DNA from: a virus
Length of the DNA stretch: 35,082 nt
IMG/VR virus record: IMGVR_UViG_3300048034_000296
Location: 1 to 35,082 of that record
Reading direction: 5' to 3' (one strand)
Shown piece by piece: positions 12,157-25,313 of the stretch (its first letter is position 1; every line of letters starts with the position of its first letter). A program made the position numbers and the translations under genes. Below the pieces are notes generated by a model. The model ran no database searches. It was not told the DNA's origin and saw nothing but the letters and a program-made list of their open reading frames with translations.

Positions 12157-14370
12157 TTATTTTTCTATTAATTTTGATAAACCACCGCCGTTGGTGTATT
12201 TAGCTATTTTTAAATTTATTTTGGTTTTCTCTGCAATCTGTTTTGGATAATACAAATGTCTGTTGCAAGCCATTATAGCTAAACCTGAGCTTATCGCTGC
12301 ATCAAACTTTGTTCTTTTATTTATATCGAACCTAGACCATTCATTTAATGTTGTATTAAAATACATAGTCCCATAAGTGTTATCTTCTAGTAGGCCCACG
12401 TGCTTATCTATGTATGATTCAATAGCTGCCGCGTGCGCTTGTTTTATATCTTCACTAGAGTTAGGCATACCGCCTATTTCTCTTTCAGCTACAGATAACT
12501 TATTCCAAATTTTATCAGGTCTATTCATTGAATAACCCCTGTATCCTCTTCTTTTAAAATAATAAAGCAATCTAGGCTTATTATTTTCAGCTAATATTGG
12601 CATGCCATAAAATACACAAGCCATTAATACATCTTCAAAAAACATTTCAGCGGTCTGTGGCCTAGCTATGTATTCTAAAAAAAACGTATTAGCAGGTGCA
12701 TCTTCCATGCTAAACTTAGTTAATCCATGTAACGCACCTTTGGAGCCTTGTCCATCTGTTGTTCCGGATATATCATAACTATCACAACCAAATGCACCCA
12801 TGTGCTCATTACCAGGACTTTTTAACCCTTTCTTTGTTGTTTGTCTATTTTGAATATCTAAACCAGGTACCCAAGATATCTTGAATCTACCCGATGGGTT
12901 TGGCGTAAATATAACTCTAGAGTCTTTAATACCTTTGTCCCACTGAAAGTTACCTTTAGTTAGTACATTAGTATTACCTAAGTCTTCGTTATAATCTATT
13001 TGTTCGTATATTTTAACTAAATTAAATATACTGTTTTTCGTTTCATCTCTAAAAGCATGTTCCTCTGTTCTTGGAAATTGCCTATAAAATTCATTTAAAG
13101 CATCTTGATCCCCTTTTAAACCATCTACTTCATTATTCCAATGCTCTATTACTCCAACGTCAATAGCGTCTCCATAAGGGCCAACGCAGCTTTTTTGTGG
13201 GGTTTCGAAGACAGGCATGCCATAAGAATCAATGAATCCTTCGTAATTCCATTCCATAGGTATGAACAAAGAATAGAGTCCTGACTTTGTTTGTCCATTA
13301 CGGTTTCGCTTTGATACATCTGAATCATTGTATAATTTTTTAAAGTTCTCTCCTCCTTTGTCTAACGCATTAGAGGTGGACCCCATCATACACTTGCCTA
13401 TTACTCTTGCACCTAATCTTAATGTTGTTTTCGTAACCCTCCAGTTGTTGAGGATGTTGTCGGGCCTTTCCCACTTCCCCGATTCATCGTGGACGAGGAG
13501 TTTAAGTTTCTCCCCATCGTAGGAGTTGTCACCGGTATTCTTCCAGTCGATCGTCGTATCAAGACCCTCGAGCGACTCCTGATCACCTTTACTTTGGATT
13601 GACTTTCTAGTGAGTCTACTGGCTGGGATACGGTATGCGAGTTCGGTCTTTGGCCTGTCCATACCGTCCTGGATCGGCTTGAAAAAGAAGGGATAGTTGA
13701 CGGAAATTGGTACCACCTTATCTGTGAACATCTTTTTAGCATCGGAACCAGATTTGGACAATATGCCGTACCGTGCATCCGAGGATATTGTAGCCAAGTT
13801 GACTGTCTCAGCTGAGGACATAAATGAGAATCCGCTTCGACGGTTTTTAAGATAACACATTCCATAAGACCTGGAATCTGCTTTGCATGCTTCCCAAAAG
13901 ATGAAGAATAATCTATTTGCTTCCCGAAAGTCTGGCTTCCCAACGTCAATTTTGGAGTGCTGCAGGTACATAAAGTGAGTACCAGTAATGTAAGTAGCCA
14001 AATTCTTATTATTGAACCAGTGGCCTTCTTCTCTAAGTCTAAATTGTTCATCTATATATGGTTCCCATTTTTCTTTAAAATCTTCAGGGTAGTCCCTCCA
14101 ATCAAAAACGCTCTGTATTTTCTTAAGTTCCTTGGGGAATTCTTCTGGAGTCCATTTATCTTGCGTTTTGTCAACCTTATTAGGGGCTTTGGGTAGCGCT
14201 ATCTTAAGGTTTTGTATATTATATATATCTCCAATTTTTCCGGTTTTACTTATAACAACGATATCATGCTCCTTGTTATATCCGTATTTCCATTTTTTGG
14301 ATTTATTTAATCTTGTAATCGTATTCTGCTTTACAGGCGTTATGATCTTATATAATGATTGTTCGTACAT
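12157..14370 (-). CDS. terL: terminase large subunit (DNA-packaging ATPase/nuclease)
   Basis: This 737-residue protein has the two halves of a large terminase. The ATPase part carries KNRRSGFS at residues 175-182, fitting the deviant Walker A form KxRxxGxS of these enzymes, and KLLVHDESGKW with the Walker B acid and catalytic Glu at about 295-296. The C-terminal nuclease part carries FGCDSYDISG with Asp530 as a probable metal ligand, and later acidic positions. It would translocate DNA through the portal (next gene, 4 nt away) and cut it. The coding stretch for about residues 130-310 (roughly 13440-13980) is markedly GC-richer than its flanks (for example 35 of 60 bases G or C at 13621-13680), yet the frame is intact. 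This suggests a recombined segment covering the ATPase core. Confidence 0.88.
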   Translation of the reverse strand: MYEQSLYKIITPVKQNTITRLNKSKKWKYGYNKEHDIVVISKTGKIGDIYNIQNLKIALPKAPNKVDKTQDKWTPEEFPKELKKIQSVFDWRDYPEDFKEKWEPYIDEQFRLREEGHWFNNKNLATYITGTHFMYLQHSKIDVGKPDFREANRLFFIFWEACKADSRSYGMCYLKNRRSGFSFMSSAETVNLATISSDARYGILSKSGSDAKKMFTDKVVPISVNYPFFFKPIQDGMDRPKTELAYRIPASRLTRKSIQSKGDQESLEGLDTTIDWKNTGDNSYDGEKLKLLVHDESGKWERPDNILNNWRVTKTTLRLGARVIGKCMMGSTSNALDKGGENFKKLYNDSDVSKRNRNGQTKSGLYSLFIPMEWNYEGFIDSYGMPVFETPQKSCVGPYGDAIDVGVIEHWNNEVDGLKGDQDALNEFYRQFPRTEEHAFRDETKNSIFNLVKIYEQIDYNEDLGNTNVLTKGNFQWDKGIKDSRVIFTPNPSGRFKISWVPGLDIQNRQTTKKGLKSPGNEHMGAFGCDSYDISGTTDGQGSKGALHGLTKFSMEDAPANTFFLEYIARPQTAEMFFEDVLMACVFYGMPILAENNKPRLLYYFKRRGYRGYSMNRPDKIWNKLSVAEREIGGMPNSSEDIKQAHAAAIESYIDKHVGLLEDNTYGTMYFNTTLNEWSRFDINKRTKFDAAISSGLAIMACNRHLYYPKQIAEKTKINLKIAKYTNGGGLSKLIEK

Positions 14371-14645
14371 TATTTAGATCTTTTTTCTGCAAACCCACTA
14401 AAGGCTTTCTTTTGAACTTCTTCTTTCGGTTTATTTTCCAATAAGTTTTCTTCGTCCTGTATTCTATTTAATATTTCAAAAGCGTCAAAGATAGCTAGCT
14501 TTTTTGTGGCTGCTGCGTTTTTTAATCTGTCAGCTGATATATCATCATCTGAATCTACAATAGCTTCTTTTGCTACTTTAATTAATTCCTCAACTGCCTT
14601 GTGCCCAGCTTGGATTATATTCTTCTTCGTCTCCTTGATATTCAT
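14370..14645 (-). CDS. small helical protein, possible terminase small subunit
   Basis: The product is 91 residues, charged and almost wholly helical: AGHKAVEELIKVAKEAIVD, then ADRLKNAAATKKLAIFDAF and EILNRIQDEENLLENKP, ending in the basic AFSGFAEKRSK. Its stop shares one base with the start of the terminase large subunit gene (TAATG), so the two are translationally coupled. A small helical protein directly before terL is often the small terminase, which binds the packaging site; the length is short for that family and no clear helix-turn-helix is seen, so this is only a possibility. Its start overlaps the previous gene by 56 nt; no internal ATG exists, so either the overlap is real or a non-ATG start is used. 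Confidence 0.6.
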   Translation of the reverse strand: MNIKETKKNIIQAGHKAVEELIKVAKEAIVDSDDDISADRLKNAAATKKLAIFDAFEILNRIQDEENLLENKPKEEVQKKAFSGFAEKRSK

Positions 14646-15189
14646 ATTTAATTGTAATTGAATTAGTGGGAACTCGGTATACCCTCTGCCCGCTTATTAT
14701 AAACTCATATTCAGCACCTGGCTTAAATCCAACAAGATCCCCAGGCTGTACTGTATTTAAGTTTGGGTCAGCAGCATATAATACGCCAACTCCTTCTTTT
14801 TCAAAATTAAAAGAAAACATTTTTTTTTCTTTAATAGGCTTTACAAAGTTGTAACCTTCGCATGCTCTCCATCCGCAGCAAGTTTTAACAGCGTAAACCT
14901 GGTCCTCGCTCGCAAAAAATATATCTTCTTTATAATATGATCTACTGTTCTTTTCAACGCCTCTAATGTCTCTAAAACGCCTAAACACATTGTGGTGTAC
15001 AATGATCTCATCACCAACTACAATATCTGTTTTTATTTCAGATGGTATTGCTAAAACTTTCGCTACTCTATTGGAGTAACTGTGGTTTTGCATTTCTGTA
15101 TTTAATATAAGATCTCCTTCTTCTAGTCGCTTGTTGTTATTATATCTTCCATCAACTGGCTCTATAATAAAATCATATACAGCTTTCAT
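14590..15189 (-). CDS. conserved beta-rich phage protein, possibly GroES-like barrels
   Basis: The 199-residue protein is beta-rich, with repeated patterns of 'value-lies-in-barrel' type: RVAKVLAIPSEIKTDIVVGD EI then VHHNVFR, and further on GVGVLYAADPNLNTVQPGDL followed by VGFKPGAEYEFIISG and YRVPTNSITIKYEYQGDEEE. The phrases 'VGDEIIVHHNVFR' and 'PGDLVGFKPGAEYEFIISG' resemble the GroES pattern (vGD.V.f....G.e...dg..y..), so it may contain two co-chaperonin-like barrels without a clear mobile loop. That is a weak resemblance and not a firm assignment. A CCGWRAC motif in the middle could bind a metal. It overlaps both neighbours and sits just upstream of the packaging genes. Confidence 0.6.
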   Translation of the reverse strand: MKAVYDFIIEPVDGRYNNNKRLEEGDLILNTEMQNHSYSNRVAKVLAIPSEIKTDIVVGDEIIVHHNVFRRFRDIRGVEKNSRSYYKEDIFFASEDQVYAVKTCCGWRACEGYNFVKPIKEKKMFSFNFEKEGVGVLYAADPNLNTVQPGDLVGFKPGAEYEFIISGQRVYRVPTNSITIKYEYQGDEEEYNPSWAQGS

Positions 15190-16071: not shown

Positions 16072-16584
16072 TTATTTCTTTCTTTTTTTTGCGTCATCCT
16101 CACCAATCTTATCAATAGCGGCAGTAACACCTGTTTCATCAAGCACTGTCCCTGAAGCTCGCTCAATCGTCCCAAGCTTATTAGGTTTATCAAGTTGAAA
16201 AAACTTACTGCCTTTATTGTTAATTAGCTTACTTTTCTTATAAGACTCAACTGTTTTGTCTACAGCTTTTGCTCCTTTCATAGCTTTTGTCCCTTTAAGC
16301 CCAAGCTTAGCGGCTCCAGCTGCCCAGCCCCCAAATGGAACAGCAGCAGCAGTGGACAGAGCGGCATTTGTTCCATCTCCTTCGCCTGCATACCACCCAG
16401 CATTAATAAGATCAGCGGCACTTCCTATTCCCCAGACATCCACAAAACCCAAAACGTCAAGAGCAAGATGACCTGCTTTATTAGCAAAGCTTTTTTCTTT
16501 AGTCTGCTTAAAAGGGGCAGGTCTCTTCGAGGAGTCCTTAGTCTTCGCTGTTATTGGTCTTGCTTTATAGCCTTTAGTTGCCAT
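16072..16584 (-). CDS. PIT-motif protein with hydrophobic Gly/Ala domain resembling a pretoxin linker
   Basis: The 170-residue protein begins GYKARPITAKTK, the N-terminal motif shared with three nearby genes. A Lys/Pro-rich linker (about 15-35) leads to a hydrophobic segment at about 38-93: LALDVLGFVDVWGIGSAADL, NAGWYAGEGDGTNAALSTAA, then AVPFGGWAAGAAKLG. This closely resembles the small helical domain found before the toxic part of bacterial polymorphic toxins, where it is thought to aid membrane passage. In a virion protein it could instead help DNA or protein ejection. The rest is Lys-rich (GTKAMKGAKAVDKTVESYKK) and ends DDAKKRKK. No toxin domain is present. It is placed 3 nt before the holin-like gene. 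Confidence 0.65.
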   Translation of the reverse strand: MATKGYKARPITAKTKDSSKRPAPFKQTKEKSFANKAGHLALDVLGFVDVWGIGSAADLINAGWYAGEGDGTNAALSTAAAVPFGGWAAGAAKLGLKGTKAMKGAKAVDKTVESYKKSKLINNKGSKFFQLDKPNKLGTIERASGTVLDETGVTAAIDKIGEDDAKKRKK

Positions 16585-16587
16585 GCG

Positions 16588-17721
16588 TTATAGTGCTTTA
16601 GTTGGTTCAATCGCTTTAGATGACTGACGGCTATTTCCTGTCGCTTTGCTCTGAGCTTTTTTCGCTTGCGCTTTTTTTCTATCTCTTGTTCTTTTTCCAG
16701 TAACTGTTCTTAATAAGTTACCCGCAATACTTCCTCCAGTACCTGTAGCCTCATCATACTTTACTTTGCGCCCTTTTCTAGCTGTTCTCTTAGCTTCTCT
16801 TTTTACAGTCTTATCGTATCTCTTTCTAAGTTTTTGAGCTTTTCTTTGTTTATCTTCAGTTGAAAGACTCTTGTCCGCTAACACTGCATTACCTTTAGCT
16901 CTTAATTTTTGAGATTTGGTTGGTTTTGCTGCAGGTGTTTTTTTACCGCTTGGTACTTGAGCTTGTAATTCTTTAGGATCTAGCTTTGTTTTAATCTCAA
17001 CTTTCTTTTGAGAAATTGGCTGTGTTTTTATAGTACTTACTTTTTCTACCTTTGGCCTAGAGTCGTAGCTATCTTTAACATCCCACTTACCTGTCTTCTT
17101 GTAGACTGCATTCTGGCGTTTAGCTTCTTTTATATAAGATGCTTTATCCATGTTCTTATACCTCTCACCTCTGTCTTCAAAAGCTTGGTCATAAGATTTT
17201 TTCTTTTTAGGTTTTACAGTTGGCTTTACATCTTTGTCTTGAGCTTTAACCTCCGGTACAACTTCATTACCCCCTAGTTTACTTATACCATATCCAATTC
17301 CTCCTAAAGCTCCTAGTTTCATAACTTTTTTAGCTATGTTCATAAATCCACCTCCAGTGTTTTTAGGATTAGCTACAGTTTTACCAACCACCTCTATTGT
17401 TCTTGGAGCGCTTTTTTGAATTGCTTTTTTAGTTGTTGCAACACCTGTATTGCTTACCGCAGGCAACATTCTTTGAGCGCCTTTTTTAACGAGCTGCTGC
17501 CCTACTTTCTTAAGTAAAGTTCCCACTTGCTTAGTTGGAGCAGGAGCAGGTGCCATCATTTTGTTTGCTGACCCGGGAGTTGGGTAGCCTTCATTATAAT
17601 TTTTAGCCACTGATGGAGCTTTTGCTGTCATCTTTACTGGTGCGCCCATATTCAATATCGGCTGCGTGATACCACCTTTAGTGGTTCTTTTAATCTTTGC
17701 TGTGATTGGTTGATTTTTCAT
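16588..17721 (-). CDS. lysine-rich PIT-motif protein, putative virion-internal protein
   Basis: The 377-residue product is extremely basic. It opens MKNQPITAKIKRTTKG and then has ITQPILNMGAPVKMTAK, both patterns shared in part with neighbouring genes. About residues 125-151 contain a hydrophobic, Gly-rich stretch (MKLGALGGIGYGISKLGG) that could insert in a membrane. The remainder is low-complexity Lys/Ala/Pro/Arg sequence (VKPTVKPKKKKSYDQAFED; KRYDKTVKREAKRTARKGRK). Such proteins neutralise packaged DNA or are ejected with it in other phages, but no specific family is recognised. It sits 3 nt upstream of the pretoxin-like gene, and the two probably act together. Confidence 0.6.
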   Translation of the reverse strand: MKNQPITAKIKRTTKGGITQPILNMGAPVKMTAKAPSVAKNYNEGYPTPGSANKMMAPAPAPTKQVGTLLKKVGQQLVKKGAQRMLPAVSNTGVATTKKAIQKSAPRTIEVVGKTVANPKNTGGGFMNIAKKVMKLGALGGIGYGISKLGGNEVVPEVKAQDKDVKPTVKPKKKKSYDQAFEDRGERYKNMDKASYIKEAKRQNAVYKKTGKWDVKDSYDSRPKVEKVSTIKTQPISQKKVEIKTKLDPKELQAQVPSGKKTPAAKPTKSQKLRAKGNAVLADKSLSTEDKQRKAQKLRKRYDKTVKREAKRTARKGRKVKYDEATGTGGSIAGNLLRTVTGKRTRDRKKAQAKKAQSKATGNSRQSSKAIEPTKAL

Positions 17722-17887: not shown

Positions 17888-18181
17888 TTAGCATTTCCAT
17901 CTACGTCTTGCGGCGCAGATACGTTTTTTAGGTGTTTTACTACAATTTATTCTGTGCATCTTCATTTGTCCTTTTGATCTAGCACAATACGACGTACGCC
18001 TTGAGCCACCACCAGGTTGGGGCGCTTTAAGATTTCCACCTGTTTTCTTGTTATAAGCCTTACGTCCAGCCGCTGTCATTCCTGCTCCTTCTTTAGCAGT
18101 TAAAAAATGACGACCCTTACCTTTAGTAGTCTTTCTTAGCTTTTTTACAGCTGAACTTTCTTCTGGTTGTATATAAGCCAT
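17888..18181 (-). CDS. small basic Cys-containing phage protein
   Basis: The 97-residue protein is strongly basic: KKLRKTTKGKGRHFLTAKEG, then AGMTAAGRKAYNKKTGGNLK, then GGGSRRTSYCARSKGQMKM and a C-terminal ARRRWKC. The order 'AG(L/M)TAAGRKKYN.KTG.NLK... FCARM.G... ALRRWKC' is a conserved small phage domain of unknown function that I recognise from marine phages. The three C-terminal-half cysteines and the basic content suggest nucleic-acid contact or metal binding, but no experiment is known to me. It is flanked by the PIT-motif genes. Confidence 0.68.
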   Translation of the reverse strand: MAYIQPEESSAVKKLRKTTKGKGRHFLTAKEGAGMTAAGRKAYNKKTGGNLKAPQPGGGSRRTSYCARSKGQMKMHRINCSKTPKKRICAARRRWKC

Positions 18182-18184
18182 AAT

Positions 18185-19405
18185 TTATCTTTTACCGTAT
18201 CCTCTCATCTTAAACCCGCTTCTAGATTTGTTTGAGCTTTTCATTTCTTTTGCTACTATAGCCTTTTGTAGATGCTGAGGTAGCGTTTTTTGACCTGCAG
18301 TTAATTTTGCAATAGACGGATGCTTAGATGTCATTTTATAAGCCGATCTGTATTTAGCCATGGTAGCTTGAGGATCTGTTGTTGGTTTACCAGAATTAGG
18401 ATCTACATACTGTCCTGCTTCTATCGCACCTGCTGCTTGTCCCGCTACTGGTGCGCTTTCAGTTGCAGCATTAGTAGCTGCATCAATCGCTCCGGCTGCT
18501 TGGCCAGTTGATTGGCTATTGCCTGTTACAATACCTTGATTATTAGCCGCTTCATTCTTTTTGTTTTCGAGTGCGGTTTTTTCGGCTGCTTCTCTTCTTG
18601 CTTTCTCTATAAGAAATTTTTCCTGTCCTTTTTGACCTCCTTCTAATTCATCTTGCCCAGTATTTCTTTGACCTGATCTTACTAGCTCTCCTGCACCTCT
18701 ACCTGAATTGATTGCAATTTGTGAATTTTTTACATTAGATCTAAACCCTATAAGTCGGTTGTTTTGTTTTTCAAATTTTCTTTGTTGTTTGGGACTAGCT
18801 CCTTCTGGCAAGCTATAAGTACCATCTGCAGCCCTTATAGCGCCTAGTTTATCTAGTCTTTTACTAGCTAAGTTAACTTTTCTAGTATTACTTTGAAGTC
18901 CTCTATTTATCCTGCTTATTTCCCAAGGCTGTAATACTCTAGACTGAGTACCTGTTTTTAAATCACCCTGTACGCCTGGTGTAGTTTCAGTTTTAGTACA
19001 TTTACCATTTGCATCTGGAGTAGATCCGTCTTTACATGTTTTTTTCTCAGGTTTTTTACACTCACACTTATCACCTACAACTGTTGGCGTACCTTCAGTA
19101 CACTTAAATTTAAAGCAAGGCCCGTTTTTCTTTCTTCCGCCTACAACATCTTTCTTGTACTCAGCGCACTTTGCATTTCCGTTTTTTGCTATGTATTCTT
19201 TAGAGCAAGCTTGTTCGCTTTTTTTATATACTTTTTTCTTTCCATCTCCTCCTCCGGTTACATCAGCATCGGTTGTTGTTGTTATTGTTTCGCCATCGGC
19301 ATATACTTTAGCGTTGGTGACTTTATTATTTCTCGATTCTCCGGTGCCGTCAGTTTGTTTTGCAGGCGCTCTTTTTACTCTGCCTGTTATTGGGTAGTTT
19401 GACAT
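18185..19405 (-). CDS. PIT-motif protein with eight-cysteine domain
   Basis: This 406-residue protein begins MSNYPITGRVKRAPAKQ, the third member of the N-terminal motif group. Residues 67-136 carry eight cysteines (67, 80, 97, 102, 114, 116, 124, 136) with Lys/Gly between them (KKNGPCFKFKCTEG; GDKCECKKPEKKTCKDG), looking like a small disulfide or metal-binding domain. The rest is Ala/Gly/Gln/Asn-rich and probably extended (GQAAGAIDAATNAATES appears near a second GQAAGAIEAG), ending in a basic tail (NKSRSGFKMRGYGKR). No signal peptide is seen, so disulfides would have to form after lysis. No family is recognised. Confidence 0.6.
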   Translation of the reverse strand: MSNYPITGRVKRAPAKQTDGTGESRNNKVTNAKVYADGETITTTTDADVTGGGDGKKKVYKKSEQACSKEYIAKNGNAKCAEYKKDVVGGRKKNGPCFKFKCTEGTPTVVGDKCECKKPEKKTCKDGSTPDANGKCTKTETTPGVQGDLKTGTQSRVLQPWEISRINRGLQSNTRKVNLASKRLDKLGAIRAADGTYSLPEGASPKQQRKFEKQNNRLIGFRSNVKNSQIAINSGRGAGELVRSGQRNTGQDELEGGQKGQEKFLIEKARREAAEKTALENKKNEAANNQGIVTGNSQSTGQAAGAIDAATNAATESAPVAGQAAGAIEAGQYVDPNSGKPTTDPQATMAKYRSAYKMTSKHPSIAKLTAGQKTLPQHLQKAIVAKEMKSSNKSRSGFKMRGYGKR

Positions 19406-19430: not shown

Positions 19431-19673
19431 TTATACTTCAGGGGTCTTTGTTGAGTCAGTTGGGGGTTTGAATTTTTCTTCGTCTTCCTTCTGAGTTTTT
19501 CCATGATCAACAGGTTTTGATGAACGGTCAGATTCAAATTTTTCTTCTAAATCGTCACTGTGATCTTTAAATTGTTTAGACTTCCCCATGTTTATCGCGC
19601 CTTGTATTAAGTTTGCATCTGATTTATAAGGAGAACATGCTTTTGATGTTATTGGTCTTGCTTTGTATGTCAT
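19431..19673 (-). CDS. short PIT-motif protein
   Basis: The 80-residue product opens MTYKARPITSKACSPYK, very close to the start of the 170-aa neighbour (GYKARPITAKTK), and continues NLIQGAINMGKSKQF, which resembles the ILNMGAPVKM of the 377-aa neighbour. The second half is acidic/charged and probably disordered (DDLEEKFESDRSSKPVDHGK, TQKEDEEKFKPP). It looks almost like the shared N-terminal tag with a short tail. Its function is unknown; it lies just downstream of the metallopeptidase-like gene, a candidate processing enzyme. Confidence 0.6.
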   Translation of the reverse strand: MTYKARPITSKACSPYKSDANLIQGAINMGKSKQFKDHSDDLEEKFESDRSSKPVDHGKTQKEDEEKFKPPTDSTKTPEV

Positions 19674-19685
19674 TGTTAAAAGTTT

Positions 19686-20063
19686 TTATGCGTTGTAGGC
19701 TTCATCTTCCCATTCGAAGCTACCGCCTTCCATATCTGATTTACCTGTTTTTGTATCTATCAAACGTCCACCCTCTCTTTTATATACTCTCGCAGGTGTT
19801 CTTGTGTCTTTTTTCCACGTGACAGTATTATTATCGTATGATAATCTATTTTGCCCCATTTGTTTTAAATGCTCTTTCTCGTGCTCTACCACTTCTTGTT
19901 TTTGTTCGCCTTTTACTGATTTATCTATAAATATAGTTCCATCATTATTAGCTTCCCCCATGATATCTCCACCTAAATCTTTTACAAAAACAGGTGTTCC
20001 ATAAGTAGATGTTTCTTTGTCTATTCCAACAAGATCTGAAAAGTCTTTTAATCTAAAGCTCAT
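19686..20063 (-). CDS. HEKEH metallopeptidase-like protein
   Basis: The 125-residue protein contains VVEHEKEHLKQMGQ, with H61-E62-K63-E64-H65 matching the HExxH zinc-peptidase signature in a helix. Preceding it are beta segments (TPVFVKDLGGDIMGEANNDG, TIFIDKSVKG) and following it a short charged part. Its size suits a minimal zincin domain. Substrates could be capsid or PIT-motif proteins nearby, or cell wall; nothing in the sequence decides. A third metal ligand is not certain. Its start shares one base with the stop of the winged-helix-like gene (TAATG), so it is coupled to the chaperonin cluster. HExxH can occur by chance, but the helix context and small family-like domain favour an enzyme. 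Confidence 0.6.
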   Translation of the reverse strand: MSFRLKDFSDLVGIDKETSTYGTPVFVKDLGGDIMGEANNDGTIFIDKSVKGEQKQEVVEHEKEHLKQMGQNRLSYDNNTVTWKKDTRTPARVYKREGGRLIDTKTGKSDMEGGSFEWEDEAYNA

Positions 20064-20503
20064 TATCTTTCTTTATCTCTTATCATATCATCTATGGCTT
20101 TATTAAACACCTTATCTGTATATGATTTGTTTTTATAAAACACACTTCTTTGTGATGTGGGTAAATCTTCTTGCCCTAGTAACACTTTGTATATTCTATT
20201 GATTAATCTTCTACTTTTTGAAGAGACTTTGTAAACAGCGTATTTAGAGTTTGTTCTATTTCTTTCTTTGAACACATCTATCCACTCATCTTTTCTTAAT
20301 CTTTCCCATCTTTCTTTATCCCAGGAATATGTATACGCTCCATTAATAAAATCGTTTCTTGTAAAAAATTGCTTGCAATCTAAATATATTAACAATTCTA
20401 AATCCGCGTCTTTTAAATCATAAGTTTTACAAGCCCATCTCCTGACAAGCCTGTAATACTTAAGTAAATTTATTTCCCGCAAATCATCCGCGTCTAACCT
20501 CAT
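20063..20503 (-). CDS. winged-helix/MarR-like DNA-binding protein candidate
   Basis: The 146-residue protein is helical and basic with a layout like MarR-type winged helices: helix ADLELLIYLDCKQFFTRNDF (33-52), then TYSWDKERWERLRKDEWIDV (58-77), a charged wing (FKERNRTNSKYAVYKVSSKS) and helices RRLINRIYKVLLGQEDLP and YTDKVFNKAIDDMIRDK. Proteins of this plan, with 'FTR.DF' and 'W.RL.K.GWI.V', are frequent in marine and flavobacterial phage late modules. It may be a late-gene regulator or a virion protein; the role is inferred from fold pattern only. It overlaps the GroES stop by 4 nt (ATGA), so it is translated with the chaperonins. Confidence 0.6.
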   Translation of the reverse strand: MRLDADDLREINLLKYYRLVRRWACKTYDLKDADLELLIYLDCKQFFTRNDFINGAYTYSWDKERWERLRKDEWIDVFKERNRTNSKYAVYKVSSKSRRLINRIYKVLLGQEDLPTSQRSVFYKNKSYTDKVFNKAIDDMIRDKER

Positions 20504-20757
20504 TCTACAATAACAACGTCTTTCAGTGTTATAACATAATAGAGTTTATCTTTCCATTCAATACCATGACCGGCATGTTTGTCATACCTAACAATATCTT
20601 TTTCTTTAATACCTTCTATTTTATCACCTACACTAACAACAACCCCTTTTAAGTACCTAACGTCGCTGTCTTGTTTTTCAGTTAATTCAAGACCCCCTAC
20701 TTTTTTCGGGGCTTCTTTTATTTTGTCTATAATTATGTAATAATTAATTGCTTTCAT
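20500..20757 (-). CDS. groES: phage co-chaperonin GroES
   Basis: At 85 residues this is a slightly short GroES. The start AINYYIIIDKIKEAPKKVGG corresponds to the first barrel strand and the mobile loop, with GGLELT in place of the GG-hydrophobic-x-hydrophobic-T sequence that contacts GroEL. The later VRYLKGVVVSVGDKIEGIKE, DIVRYDKHAGHGIEWKDKLY and DVVIVE match the GroES strands G.V..VG, GD.V.Y....G and the C-terminal strand. It would cap the phage GroEL encoded directly before it (stop and start share one base). The gene order groEL-groES is the reverse of the usual cellular order. Confidence 0.85.
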   Translation of the reverse strand: MKAINYYIIIDKIKEAPKKVGGLELTEKQDSDVRYLKGVVVSVGDKIEGIKEKDIVRYDKHAGHGIEWKDKLYYVITLKDVVIVE

Positions 20758-22310
20758 TATGCTAATCTTTTATTACTAATTACACAGTCGGCCGATATAA
20801 TAGTAGTAACAACGCTCACTGCATTTTTAAGTGCAGACTTTGTAACTAAAACAGGATCTATAATACCTGCTTTTATCATATTGACTTCTTTGCTACTCCT
20901 TACATCTATACCTCTGTTTTTACCAGAAGGCTTTTTAATTTCAATAATACCAGCATTGTCTAGTATTGTATAATAAGGAGACTTAATAGATTCAAATAAA
21001 ACTTCTTCTCCTTTGTTTTTAGGTTTAATAGTATTTGCAGCATTTAATAAAGCAACACCTCCACCGGCAACAATACCTTCTTTATAAGCGGCTTTTGTCG
21101 CATGCAGCGCATCTTCCACTCGGTCTTTCTTTTCTTTAAGTTCAACCTCTGAATCAGCTCCCACATATATTAAACCTACCTTACCGGTAAGCATTGATAA
21201 TCGTTGTTCAAGCTTCTTCTTAAAAAACGGATTTGTTTCTTTTTCTATCTTGCTATTAACCTCTTTTATTCTTTCAGTGACATCTATGTCCTCTGTTGTT
21301 TGAATAACTGTTGATTTTTCATCTGTAACAGATTTTACAGCATTTCCTAAAACAGCGGGATCTATAAGATCTAAATCATCTCCTAACTCTTCGTTTATTA
21401 TAGTAGCACCTGTTAGTAAAGCTAAATCATCTAAAGTCTGTTGTCTTGTTGGACCAAACCCAGGAGGATTTACAATGTTTACTTTTATATTACCTTTAAC
21501 TTTATTTGAAAGCAAAGTTGCAAAAGGTTGTTGTTCTACTTCTGCTACAATAAGTAAACTTCTTTTTGTTTTTATAACGTGTTCTAAGACGCTTTGTATT
21601 TTTCTTATATTAGGAATAGGCGAAGATACAATTAGTACCATAGGATCGCTTAAAACAGCTGTGTGCTTATCTTTATCCGTAATTAAGTGTGGCGATTTTA
21701 AACCGCTATCAAATTGAACTCCCTCAACAAAATCCACATATGTTTCATTTGAATCGGATTGCTCCATTAATACGACGCCATTTTTTCCAACTTTTTCGTA
21801 AGCTTCTCCAATTTTGGTTCCAAGCTCTTTATCATTGTTGCAGCTAATAATAGCAACATTTTGCAGCATTTCGCCTTTAACAGGAATACTGGTCTTATCA
21901 AGATATACTTTAACTTTGTTAGCGCCGCTAAGAATGCCTTCTTTAAGTTCTCTAATCTTTTCTTCATCTAAATTTTTGTTTGCTATTTTTAATAATGAGT
22001 TAGCAAGCACGGTTGATGTTGTTGTTCCGTCGCCTGCTTCCTTTACTGTATTTCTAGCCGCCTGCTTTATAAGCGTAGCGCCAATATTTTCAACCGGGTG
22101 TAATAAGACTACGCTCTCCGCAACGGTTACTCCATCTTTTGTTATTACCGGGTTGCCAAGGCTATCTTCATAAATTACGCATTTTCCAGACGCACCTAAT
22201 GTGCTCTTTACTGCGTTTGATAATTTTTCGACGCCCTGCATTATTTGATCTTTAGCACTATCCCCAAAGGTTAGCGTTTTTACAATATCACTAGGATTAT
22301 TAAATTCCAT
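20757..22310 (-). CDS. groEL: phage chaperonin GroEL (Cpn60)
   Basis: The 517-residue protein is a full group I chaperonin lacking only the Gly-Gly-Met tail. Visible landmarks: the equatorial entry VKSTLGASGKCVIYED, with TKDGVTVAESV at 58-68; the ATP site GDGTTTSTVLANS at 93-105; VEDALHATKAAYKEGIVAGG at 398-417, with Asp400 as the ATP-hydrolysis aspartate, followed by GGVALL; and a C-terminal ALKNAVSVVTTIISADCVI. The apical part (about 190-375) is diverged, including LLIVAEVEQQPFATLLSNK. It folds other proteins, probably phage capsid or fiber proteins, with the GroES encoded next to it. The base composition matches the neighbours, so this is not a very recent pick-up from the host. Confidence 0.93.
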   Translation of the reverse strand: MEFNNPSDIVKTLTFGDSAKDQIMQGVEKLSNAVKSTLGASGKCVIYEDSLGNPVITKDGVTVAESVVLLHPVENIGATLIKQAARNTVKEAGDGTTTSTVLANSLLKIANKNLDEEKIRELKEGILSGANKVKVYLDKTSIPVKGEMLQNVAIISCNNDKELGTKIGEAYEKVGKNGVVLMEQSDSNETYVDFVEGVQFDSGLKSPHLITDKDKHTAVLSDPMVLIVSSPIPNIRKIQSVLEHVIKTKRSLLIVAEVEQQPFATLLSNKVKGNIKVNIVNPPGFGPTRQQTLDDLALLTGATIINEELGDDLDLIDPAVLGNAVKSVTDEKSTVIQTTEDIDVTERIKEVNSKIEKETNPFFKKKLEQRLSMLTGKVGLIYVGADSEVELKEKKDRVEDALHATKAAYKEGIVAGGGVALLNAANTIKPKNKGEEVLFESIKSPYYTILDNAGIIEIKKPSGKNRGIDVRSSKEVNMIKAGIIDPVLVTKSALKNAVSVVTTIISADCVISNKRLA

Positions 22311-23054: not shown

Positions 23055-25313
23055 TTATTTTATTGATTTTAATAAACCATTTGAGTAACCAAAAGTTACA
23101 GTTTTAGTACCTTTACCGTCTGGAACGATAACCTGTTGTTCTCCAGAAAATCCGCTTATATAATTACCTTGATTTTCTTCTGTTAAGAAAACCCATGGTC
23201 CTTTTTGAGTACCTCCTTCTAGTCTAGAATAACTAGGTGCTCCCCAAAAGGGTAGCGTTATCATTTGATTGTAATAGTTAGATCCATTACCGTGGTTACT
23301 TATTATATTACTAGCCCATCCTGTATGACCAGCAAAATTTGTAGAACCTTGTCTCCATGTAAGATTCCCGTTACCATACCCTTGGCTTGTTAAATTGCCT
23401 GCAGAATATGACGTTGATCCAGCGGGTCCTGTTGGTCCTTGTGAACCAGTCGGTCCTTGCGACCCAGTTGATCCAGTATTACCCTTAGCCCCCTGAGGCC
23501 CAGTTGCACCTGCTAATCCTGGTGCTCCTTGAGGTCCAGTTGATCCAGTATTACCCTTGTCTCCTTTAGCTCCATTAGTACCGTTAGTACCAGCAGCCCC
23601 CGTTGAGCCTTTTGCTCCGGCAGGTCCCTGTGGACCAGTACCTCCTGCGGCACCAGTATATCCTCTTGGACCCTGCACCCCAGCACTACCAGCTGCCCCA
23701 GTGTCTCCTTTATCTCCTTTTGCTCCGGCTGCTCCGGCTGCTCCAGCCGCTCCTGTATTCCCTTTTGGGCCAATTCCGCCAGTTGCTCCGGCTGCTCCTG
23801 TAGCGCCAGGGTCACCTTTAGCGCCTGCTGCTCCGGTATAACCTCTCAATCCTCTTATGCCTTGAATACCTTGATCACCAGCGTCACCTTTAGGGCCTGT
23901 ACCCCCAGTAGCACCAGTAAGCCCTTGCACTCCTCTTGGCCCTGTAATTGAATTACCTTGTGGTCCTTGTGCTCCGGTGTAACCTCTTGGTCCTTGTGCT
24001 CCATCAGCTCCATCAGCACCATCATCTCCTTTAGGTCCAACACCGCCTGTACTACCTGTATAACCTCTTGGTCCCTGAGAACCAACTGCTCCTACTGCAC
24101 CTGTTGAACCTTTAGGCCCTGTTGGTCCTGCTGGCCCCGTGCTGCCCGTGTTACCTTTATCCCCTTTAGCACCATCATCACCGTCGGTTCCGTTAGAACC
24201 AGCTGCGCCTGTATATCCTCTTGGTCCTTGTGGGCCTATAGCTCCTTGAGACCCTGTACTGCCTTTTGGTCCAGTTGGTCCTGTAGAGCCTGTATTTCCT
24301 TTTGCTCCTTGCGGTCCTACCGCACCAGTAGCTCCATTAATACCGTCGTCTCCATCACTTCCCGCTGGACCCTGTAAGCCTGTTGCTCCTGTATTGCCCT
24401 TTGGCCCTTGTGGTCCTATACCACCTGTTGCTCCTGTATTACCCTTTGGTCCTACGCCACCTGTTGGCCCTTGTATTCCTTGTATTCCTTGACTACCAGT
24501 ATTACCTTTAGCTCCTTGCGGCCCTTGAGATCCTGTATTACCTTTTACACCTTGTGTACCTTTAATAGATCCACCTGTAACCCATCCATCTGCTGATGTC
24601 CATACCCATATAGAGTCGTCTGATTGTACTATATAAGCGTCACCATTTGAATTACCACTTGATGGTAAGTTAGATGATGTAGATACTTGACCTTGCATTG
24701 ATATACCCCATCCTGCACTACCTTGGGAACCTTGTATTCCCTGTGGACCTTGTGAGCCTGTGTTTCCTTTTGGCCCTGTTGGACCGGTTGGTCCTTGTGA
24801 ACCTGTATTTCCTTTAGCACCAGCTACACCTTGAGGTCCTTGAGAACCCGTAGCTCCTTTGTCGCCATCTGTACCGTTTGTTCCATTTGAACCAGCATAA
24901 CCTCTTGGACCTTGAGCTCCAACAGAACCTGTACTACCTTTAGCGCCAGTTGCGCCTTGTGGTCCAGTAGCTCCTTGAGCACCAACATTACCCTGAGGGC
25001 CTCTTGATCCAGTATCACCTTTAGCTCCTTGAGAAGCGGCTTGAGAAGAATCCCTACCAAAAGCCTCGCTTATAAACGCATGTATTTCCTCTACATCTGC
25101 TCTTACATCTTCAACATGCTTTATTAAAAACTTATTTGCTTGAAACAATCCTTCATCATTGTAAACTTCACTCATGTCCGCTAAACTCGCAAGTTCATCT
25201 GACTTTTGTTTTGATACAGTTATTTCTCCATCGCTACCCCTTACTGCTTCTTGATCAGCGGTACCTTGTTTAAATAGTTTTTTACCTCGTATTTTATTGT
25301 TTATATTTGCCAT
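23055..25313 (-). CDS. collagen-like phage tail fiber
   Basis: The 752-residue protein has an N-terminal helical part (1-95, including [20 protein letters not shown]), then Gly-X-Y repeats from about residue 96 to 632, with many GPQGPxG, GxKGNTG and GPRGYTG units. These trimerise as a collagen triple helix forming a long fiber shaft. A break at about 202-250 contains [20 protein letters not shown] and then [19 protein letters not shown], a small globular or beta segment seen in other phage collagen fibers. The final 120 residues ([20 protein letters not shown] onward, ending [11 protein letters not shown]) are non-repetitive and probably form the receptor-binding tip. The DNA repeats make recombination and length change likely. 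No proline hydroxylase is seen. Confidence 0.88.

Follow-up and report, generated by a model that had tools for sequence, protein, structure and literature searches.

Four overlapping open reading frames (ORFs) on the minus strand of this viral DNA, two of which encode a chaperonin and its co-chaperonin, raise the question of which genes make up the phage chaperonin system. The first-pass annotation had answered that the four genes are coupled and form one folding-and-processing unit for the virion. The window, i.e. the whole stretch of DNA analysed, is identical to a linear IMG/VR record of 35,082 bases, and its minus strand carries genes from approximately 30.7 kb to the left end, among them those for tail-fibre, portal, terminase and virion proteins. 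The four ORFs are the following:

20757..22310, minus strand: groEL (Cpn60), 517 aa; Pfam PF00118 (3.7e-50) and phrog_5725 (4.9e-135)
20500..20757, minus strand: small groES (Cpn10), 85 aa; Pfam PF00166 (1.9e-8, above the gathering score), with PHROGs in agreement
20063..20503, minus strand: wH, a predicted winged-helix (MarR-like) protein, 146 aa; phrog_17028 (2.3e-10) and AlphaFold model
19686..20063, minus strand: HExxH protein, 125 aa; zincin-like motif HExxHxxQ ... WExEA, no family match

The positions and the 1–4 base overlaps were confirmed, with groEL and groES sharing 1 base, groES and wH 4 bases, and wH and the HExxH gene 1 base. The special coupling that had been read into these overlaps is no more than chance would give: overlaps are found at 8 of the 29 junctions on the minus strand of the window, at least one run of three overlaps arose in 32% of junction shuffles, and a second, longer run, of four, is present at the terminase (TerL/g91/ES2/g72/g80b). 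Since overlaps are ordinary in this genome, they were discarded as proof of a unit. The flanking genes are located 22 bp upstream and 12 bp downstream, leaving the block without clear edges, so that counting four genes depends on where the boundaries are set. A promoter and terminator scan of the region gave counts like those of shuffled sequences, and scanning the window for Rfam families and tRNAs returned nothing.

The phage lineage was assessed using the terminase:

12157..14370, minus strand: terminase large subunit (TerL), lineage marker; phrog_6681 (1.2e-166)

TerL matches were limited to phages of Bacteroidota and one unassigned podovirus. Judged by sequence, the source of the window is a podovirus of Bacteroidota, kin to Elemovirus, Pervagoviridae and Pachyviridae. 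The lineage includes Elemovirus, the Pervagoviridae phi38:1 and Calle, Maribacter phage Panino, the podovirus ctfjg026, and the Pachyviridae phi13:2, phi18:3, phi19:3, phi46:3 and Gundel. No near-identity match to 24 kb of the window was found in the phage collection. The virus infects marine bacteria. Two sets of relatives were compared: 80 IMG/VR loci with the nearest relatives of the window GroEL, onto which the window genes were mapped, and a set of more distant loci, picked by a motif of the ES2 protein described below and hence not chosen for groEL. A cellular contaminant was dismissed as the origin of groEL, because 80 related viral contigs carry the gene between structural genes of phages.

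The GroEL of the window contains a Cpn60 domain (PF00118 over residues 30–514; 171.5 bits compared to a cut-off of 34.3) and is 39% identical to E. coli GroEL. All 14 of the checked ATP/Mg residues, including D52, D87–T91, D398 and D495, are kept, and these positions are kept in 72–73 of 73 GroEL sequences, gapped rows aside. The best PDB sequence match was the reconstructed Fibrobacteres-Chlorobi-Bacteroidetes ancestor, which fits a Bacteroidota origin. Several positions of the apical domain through which E. coli GroEL contacts substrate and GroES are altered in the phage protein (Y203H, L234Q, V264S/A), which weighs against the folding role favored below. The partner gene directly downstream encodes a small GroES with a Cpn10 domain (34.7 bits, cut-off 21.1) and the mobile loop GGLELT, in which a hydrophobic tripeptide follows the glycine; G22, E24 and T26 are invariant in 58 of 58 sequences, and L, I or M occupies the hydrophobic positions. 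The two genes lie a few bases apart at most in 79 of 80 close relatives and are adjacent in 26 of 27 more distant loci, and together with the Pfam and PHROGs matches this upholds the annotation of a phage GroEL with its own GroES. The two proteins almost certainly constitute a working GroEL-GroES pair. That the gene order is reversed also holds with respect to E. coli, where groS precedes groL, and the groEL-groES order is strongly conserved.

The third gene was less easily tied to this pair. The AlphaFold model of wH (pLDDT 83) is a winged helix that matched MarR in Foldseek (1.3e-3) and aligned with 2a61 (VIA Z 10.0, rmsd 3.8, 112 aligned residues), with many further MarR proteins at Z 7–9. 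The earlier guess of a winged helix for this gene is thereby backed, and wH is predicted, on the basis of the model, to have a MarR-like winged-helix fold. None of the 47 family members matched a Pfam regulator family, and a PDB sequence profile search with wH gave nothing at E 10. In the close relatives the gene is a steady neighbor of groES, with a 4-base (ATGA) overlap in 77 of 79; among the more distant loci the two adjoin in 23 of 29. In the isolated phages the layout is different. The wH homolog faces groES, convergent and close by, in Elemovirus, ctfjg026, Panino and four Cellulophaga Pachyviridae, whereas in phi38:1 some 33 kb separate it, at 41.5 kb, from groEL. Furthermore, phi13:2, phi18:3, phi19:3 and phi46:3 encode groES and wH, but a profile search of their whole records found no groEL. 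A gene that may be convergent, remote or present without groEL follows the phage lineage and not the chaperonin, and wH, despite its position beside groES, is probably not part of it. The groEL-groES pair is thus conserved, with wH as a stable but not obligatory neighbor.

The fourth gene is only loosely linked to the chaperonin genes. It overlaps wH in 28 of 75 close loci, the remainder being 6–996 bp apart, and is located within 40 bp of wH in 3 of 25 more distant loci; the HExxH gene is part of a stretch, bounded by wH and the holin gene, that varies among relatives. No match to its product was found in the isolated phages. The protein carries HEKEH at residues 61–65, and among 60 relatives' sequences the motif is HExxH in 53 and EExxH in 7, with E62 and H65 present in all 60. 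A WExEA motif near the C terminus is likewise conserved (W118 and E119 in 60 of 60, E121 in 57 of 60). The description of the gene as metallopeptidase-like therefore stands as far as the mostly retained motif is concerned, but not as a family assignment, as no significant match to a peptidase family was obtained in Pfam or PHROGs. From its sequence motif, the protein may be a small zinc protease.

These observations bear on two readings of the block. In the annotation's proposal, the four coupled genes would serve folding and processing as a single unit, wH being the regulator and the HExxH protein the enzyme that processes folded virion proteins. The overlaps in the window, the ATGA junction shared by most close relatives and the mostly conserved HExxH motif are in line with this; the shuffled fourth gene and its absence from the isolate matches, the convergent, remote or groEL-independent wH, and the commonness of overlaps in this genome all argue against it. 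We consider such a unit very improbable, and the membership of the HExxH protein in the chaperonin machine equally so. Conservation of the four-gene order, which the annotation had named as a check, applies to groEL-groES-wH, stable in the 80 relatives, but not to the fourth gene, which adjoins in only about one third; the annotation's refuting condition, neighbors shuffled in relatives, thus turned out against the fourth gene. The alternative is that wH is a MarR-like regulator of late genes or of the operon, brought close to groES by the genome layout. The winged-helix model points in this direction, as do a weak match of one homolog to the transcriptional regulator family phrog_12817 (6.6e-4), the position in phi13:2 and phi38:1, where virion genes follow it, and the occurrence in phages without groEL. 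Its operon position is, on the other hand, very stable in the window's own group, and the missing Pfam regulator match also speaks against it. On balance we regard this regulator role as likely, and it is equally likely that wH binds DNA to regulate phage genes and is no component of the chaperonin.

A gene outside the stretch described by the first-pass annotation, which missed it, encodes a second co-chaperonin:

14590..15189, minus strand: ES2, second co-chaperonin, 199 aa; phrog_13932, co-chaperonin GroES (5.9e-14)

The ES2 gene is located directly upstream of the g91-terminase genes, two genes upstream of TerL. At twice the normal GroES length, the protein comprises two tandem GroES-like domains (approximately residues 1–104 and 105–185). 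An AlphaFold model built from 45 sequences was of medium confidence (mean pLDDT 77, pTM 0.73), and its best Foldseek matches were chains R (1.2e-4) and Q (8.1e-4) of 7ekq, the Cpn20 co-chaperonin subunit and Chaperonin 23, which both have two domains. Residues 1–183 of the model aligned with the chloroplast Cpn20 chain 7ekq_R (VIA Z 10.0, rmsd 3.4, 152 aligned residues), while single GroES chains aligned separately to residues 1–103 (Z 8.0) and 106–185 (Z 8.3); gp31 of phage T4 was among the structural matches of the first half. Independently of the model, both halves matched the small-GroES profile (P 5.5e-7 for the N half and 5.2e-8 for the C half), which matched neither of two unrelated control families, and in the homologs from phi13:2 and phi38:1 the C half passed the Pfam Cpn10 cut-off. 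A profile search against PDB chains including plastid Cpn20 gave no match at E 10, so that ES2 would work like a Cpn20 rather than be one, and the structural matches of ES2, like those of wH, rest on predicted models. No convincing Pfam family was found for the 45 ES2 members; a weak Cupin match (0.005) was rejected as it was seen in one member only. ES2 is very probably a tandem GroES.

The model is of low confidence at approximately residues 21–40 and 121–130, where the GroES mobile loops would be expected. The loop of domain 1 (LILNT) hardly varies within the window's group. The loop of domain 2 is short and without a clear hydrophobic triad in the window's lineage, which suggests that this domain may not touch GroEL; it is longer in phi13:2. 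The HHNVFRR stretch, a roof segment, shows stronger conservation than the mobile loops.

Of the 80 loci from close relatives, 67 have ES2 next to the terminase and most of the rest are truncated; in the loci that extend that far, its place near g91 and TerL is fixed. Among 18 ES2-bearing contigs longer than 30 kb, 12 also encode groEL, and in 5 of the remaining 6 ES2 is located within 6.5 kb of the upstream-side end. A scan of 84,980 bacterial and archaeal species genomes, relying on two conserved peptide patterns by which distant relatives could be missed, gave a single match, on a contig of a metagenome-assembled genome; ES2 thus seems to belong almost exclusively to phages. The small GroES and ES2 are both encoded by 8 of 8 isolated relatives; Gundel has neither, and no credible match to any of the four families was found in it. 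The four groEL-less Pachyviridae keep both co-chaperonins, so ES2 is independent of the phage GroEL. This constant co-occurrence, which rests on few independent gains or losses, fits two lids working on whichever GroEL is available. Databases annotate ES2 as GroES or cpn10, and the core proteins listed for Pervagoviridae include 'chaperonin cpn10' (PMC8776804). No description of the tandem structure was found in the papers covered by the literature search.

We therefore favor the explanation, with a probability of roughly 0.66, that the phage's own GroEL, the small GroES and ES2 form a set folding phage proteins. It is established that a GroEL ring encloses bound substrate under a GroES cap upon ATP binding. 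The phage encodes its own group I chaperonin set, with GroEL and the single-domain GroES encoded in the same operon and ES2 in the packaging region. Unfolded phage proteins would bind the ring, which would be that of the phage GroEL or, where phage groEL is missing, that of the host, and upon ATP binding they would be enclosed under the co-chaperonin cap. The clients are probably abundant virion proteins, as with T4 gp31 and the capsid protein. We infer that the proteins of the set bind one another; that ES2 caps a chaperonin is probable, with less confidence than its tandem structure. The cap would be formed by the small GroES, possibly also by ES2, in analogy to chloroplast Cpn10 and Cpn20, which form hetero-oligomers with seven GroES domains (PMC5780408). 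By this analogy a mixed ES/ES2 cap is conceivable, albeit as a tentative proposal. Slightly more tentative still is the full version, a heteromeric one-/two-domain cap, independent of chloroplast Cpn10/Cpn20, that acts on a phage ring (perhaps a single one) or a host ring and folds virion proteins.

The location of ES2 beside the terminase and not the chaperonin genes counts against a co-chaperonin role, and ES2 might instead be a GroES-like ring that no longer does chaperonin work and now serves as a packaging or portal accessory. Its fixed position near g91 and TerL, its retention in phages without groEL and the strongly conserved roof segment would be in agreement with such a role. A plastid precedent for GroES-type caps bound to a partner other than GroEL is PDB 7ekq, where Cpn11/20/23 are chains of a ClpP complex. 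Gundel, however, packages its DNA with a related terminase without ES2, all isolates examined that encode ES2 also encode the small GroES, and the domain 1 loop is nearly invariant, as expected of a chaperonin contact. We judge the accessory role unlikely and retain ES2 as a probable co-chaperonin. A further possibility, which concerns the ring itself, is that the phage chaperonin acts as a single ring. The window GroEL and most of its relatives lack the right-hand inter-ring loop (E. coli E461–V464); in addition, other residues stand in place of R452 and of A108/A109, and there is no C-terminal GGM tail. As E461–V464, R452 and A108/A109 are ring-ring contact residues of E. coli GroEL, the missing loop and changed residues suggest a weak or altered ring-ring contact. 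Single-ring working has been proposed for other phage chaperonins, and those of phages EL and OBP form single-ring intermediates (PMC5934643, PMC7185714). The contact residues were, however, assigned from an alignment at 39% identity, and the contacts could be re-made differently; as read from the sequence, a single ring falls just short of an even chance.

Phage GroEL-GroES pairs are already known, and we found a tandem co-chaperonin beside a normal one described only for plastids and the apicoplast; the tandem co-chaperonin is the part of this system that is worth following. Like the window, Elemovirus, Panino, ctfjg026 and phi38:1 encode adjoining or nearly adjoining groEL and groES; they share its terminase lineage and carry the same large GroES-like gene ahead of the terminase. 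The window GroEL is less than 40% identical to theirs and their wH genes are convergent or remote. The order in phi38:1 is groES, one further ORF and then groEL, whereas groEL comes first in the window. Chloroplast Cpn20/Cpn23 share with ES2 the two GroES domains arranged head to tail in one chain and the coexistence with a single-domain Cpn10, but ES2 is encoded by a phage gene, shows no detectable relation to them in sequence, and has a short second mobile loop. T4 gp31 is likewise a phage co-chaperonin, and the groEL-less Pachyviridae would need host GroEL as gp31 does; gp31 has one domain, whereas the phages studied here have two co-chaperonins and usually their own GroEL. These Pachyviridae with both lids are a natural comparison to gp31. 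Compact culturable phages such as Elemovirus, phi38:1 and phi13:2 would allow a seven-fold GroEL to be tested with one- and two-domain caps, and with it the question of why a phage needs two lids. The chaperonins of phages EL, OBP and AR9 resemble that of the window in being phage GroEL-like ATPases that are possibly single-ring. EL gp146 is 22% identical to GroEL and is not known to have a GroES partner (PMC7185714), in contrast to the window GroEL with its 39% identity to the E. coli protein and its own GroES.

Four proteins in the variable region of the window, the stretch between the winged-helix gene that follows groES and the holin gene, were found to share a short N-terminal tag, (x)PIT[AGS][KR]:

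16072-16584, minus strand, PIT-tagged protein
16588-17721, minus strand, PIT-tagged protein
18185-19405, minus strand, PIT-tagged protein
19431-19673, minus strand, PIT-tagged protein

The N termini of ORFs on both strands of 80 related loci, representing the nearest GroEL relatives in IMG/VR, were searched with the pattern M-x(0-12)-PIT-x-[KR], which was present in 111 ORFs on the gene strand and in none on the opposite strand of these loci. When compared without the tag, the 111 ORFs fell into 14 similarity groups. A possible role of the tag is that of a common signal by which virion or ejected proteins are targeted or processed.

A further gene encodes a small protein matching DUF6321:

17888-18181, minus strand, DUF6321-matching protein (97 aa)

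This protein also matches several longer phage proteins at their C-terminal ends. As the identity is mostly 77-96% in the relatives carrying the gene, yet it occurs in under half of the 80 loci, it looks like an optional but conserved cassette.

The single-domain and tandem co-chaperonins are both retained in the Cellulophaga phages phi13:2, phi18:3, phi19:3 and phi46:3 (Pachyviridae), in which groEL was not detectable, and these phages thus presumably rely on host GroEL. The gene of the tandem co-chaperonin ES2 (14590-15189, minus strand) overlaps the next gene, g91, by 56 bases:

14370-14645, minus strand, g91

This is a conserved gene overlap of unusual length: among 67 relatives, 66 retain an overlap of 47-68 bases. 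The third gene upstream of groEL encodes a protein composed mostly of Gly-x-y repeats:

23055-25313, minus strand, collagen-like protein of tail-fibre type (752 aa)
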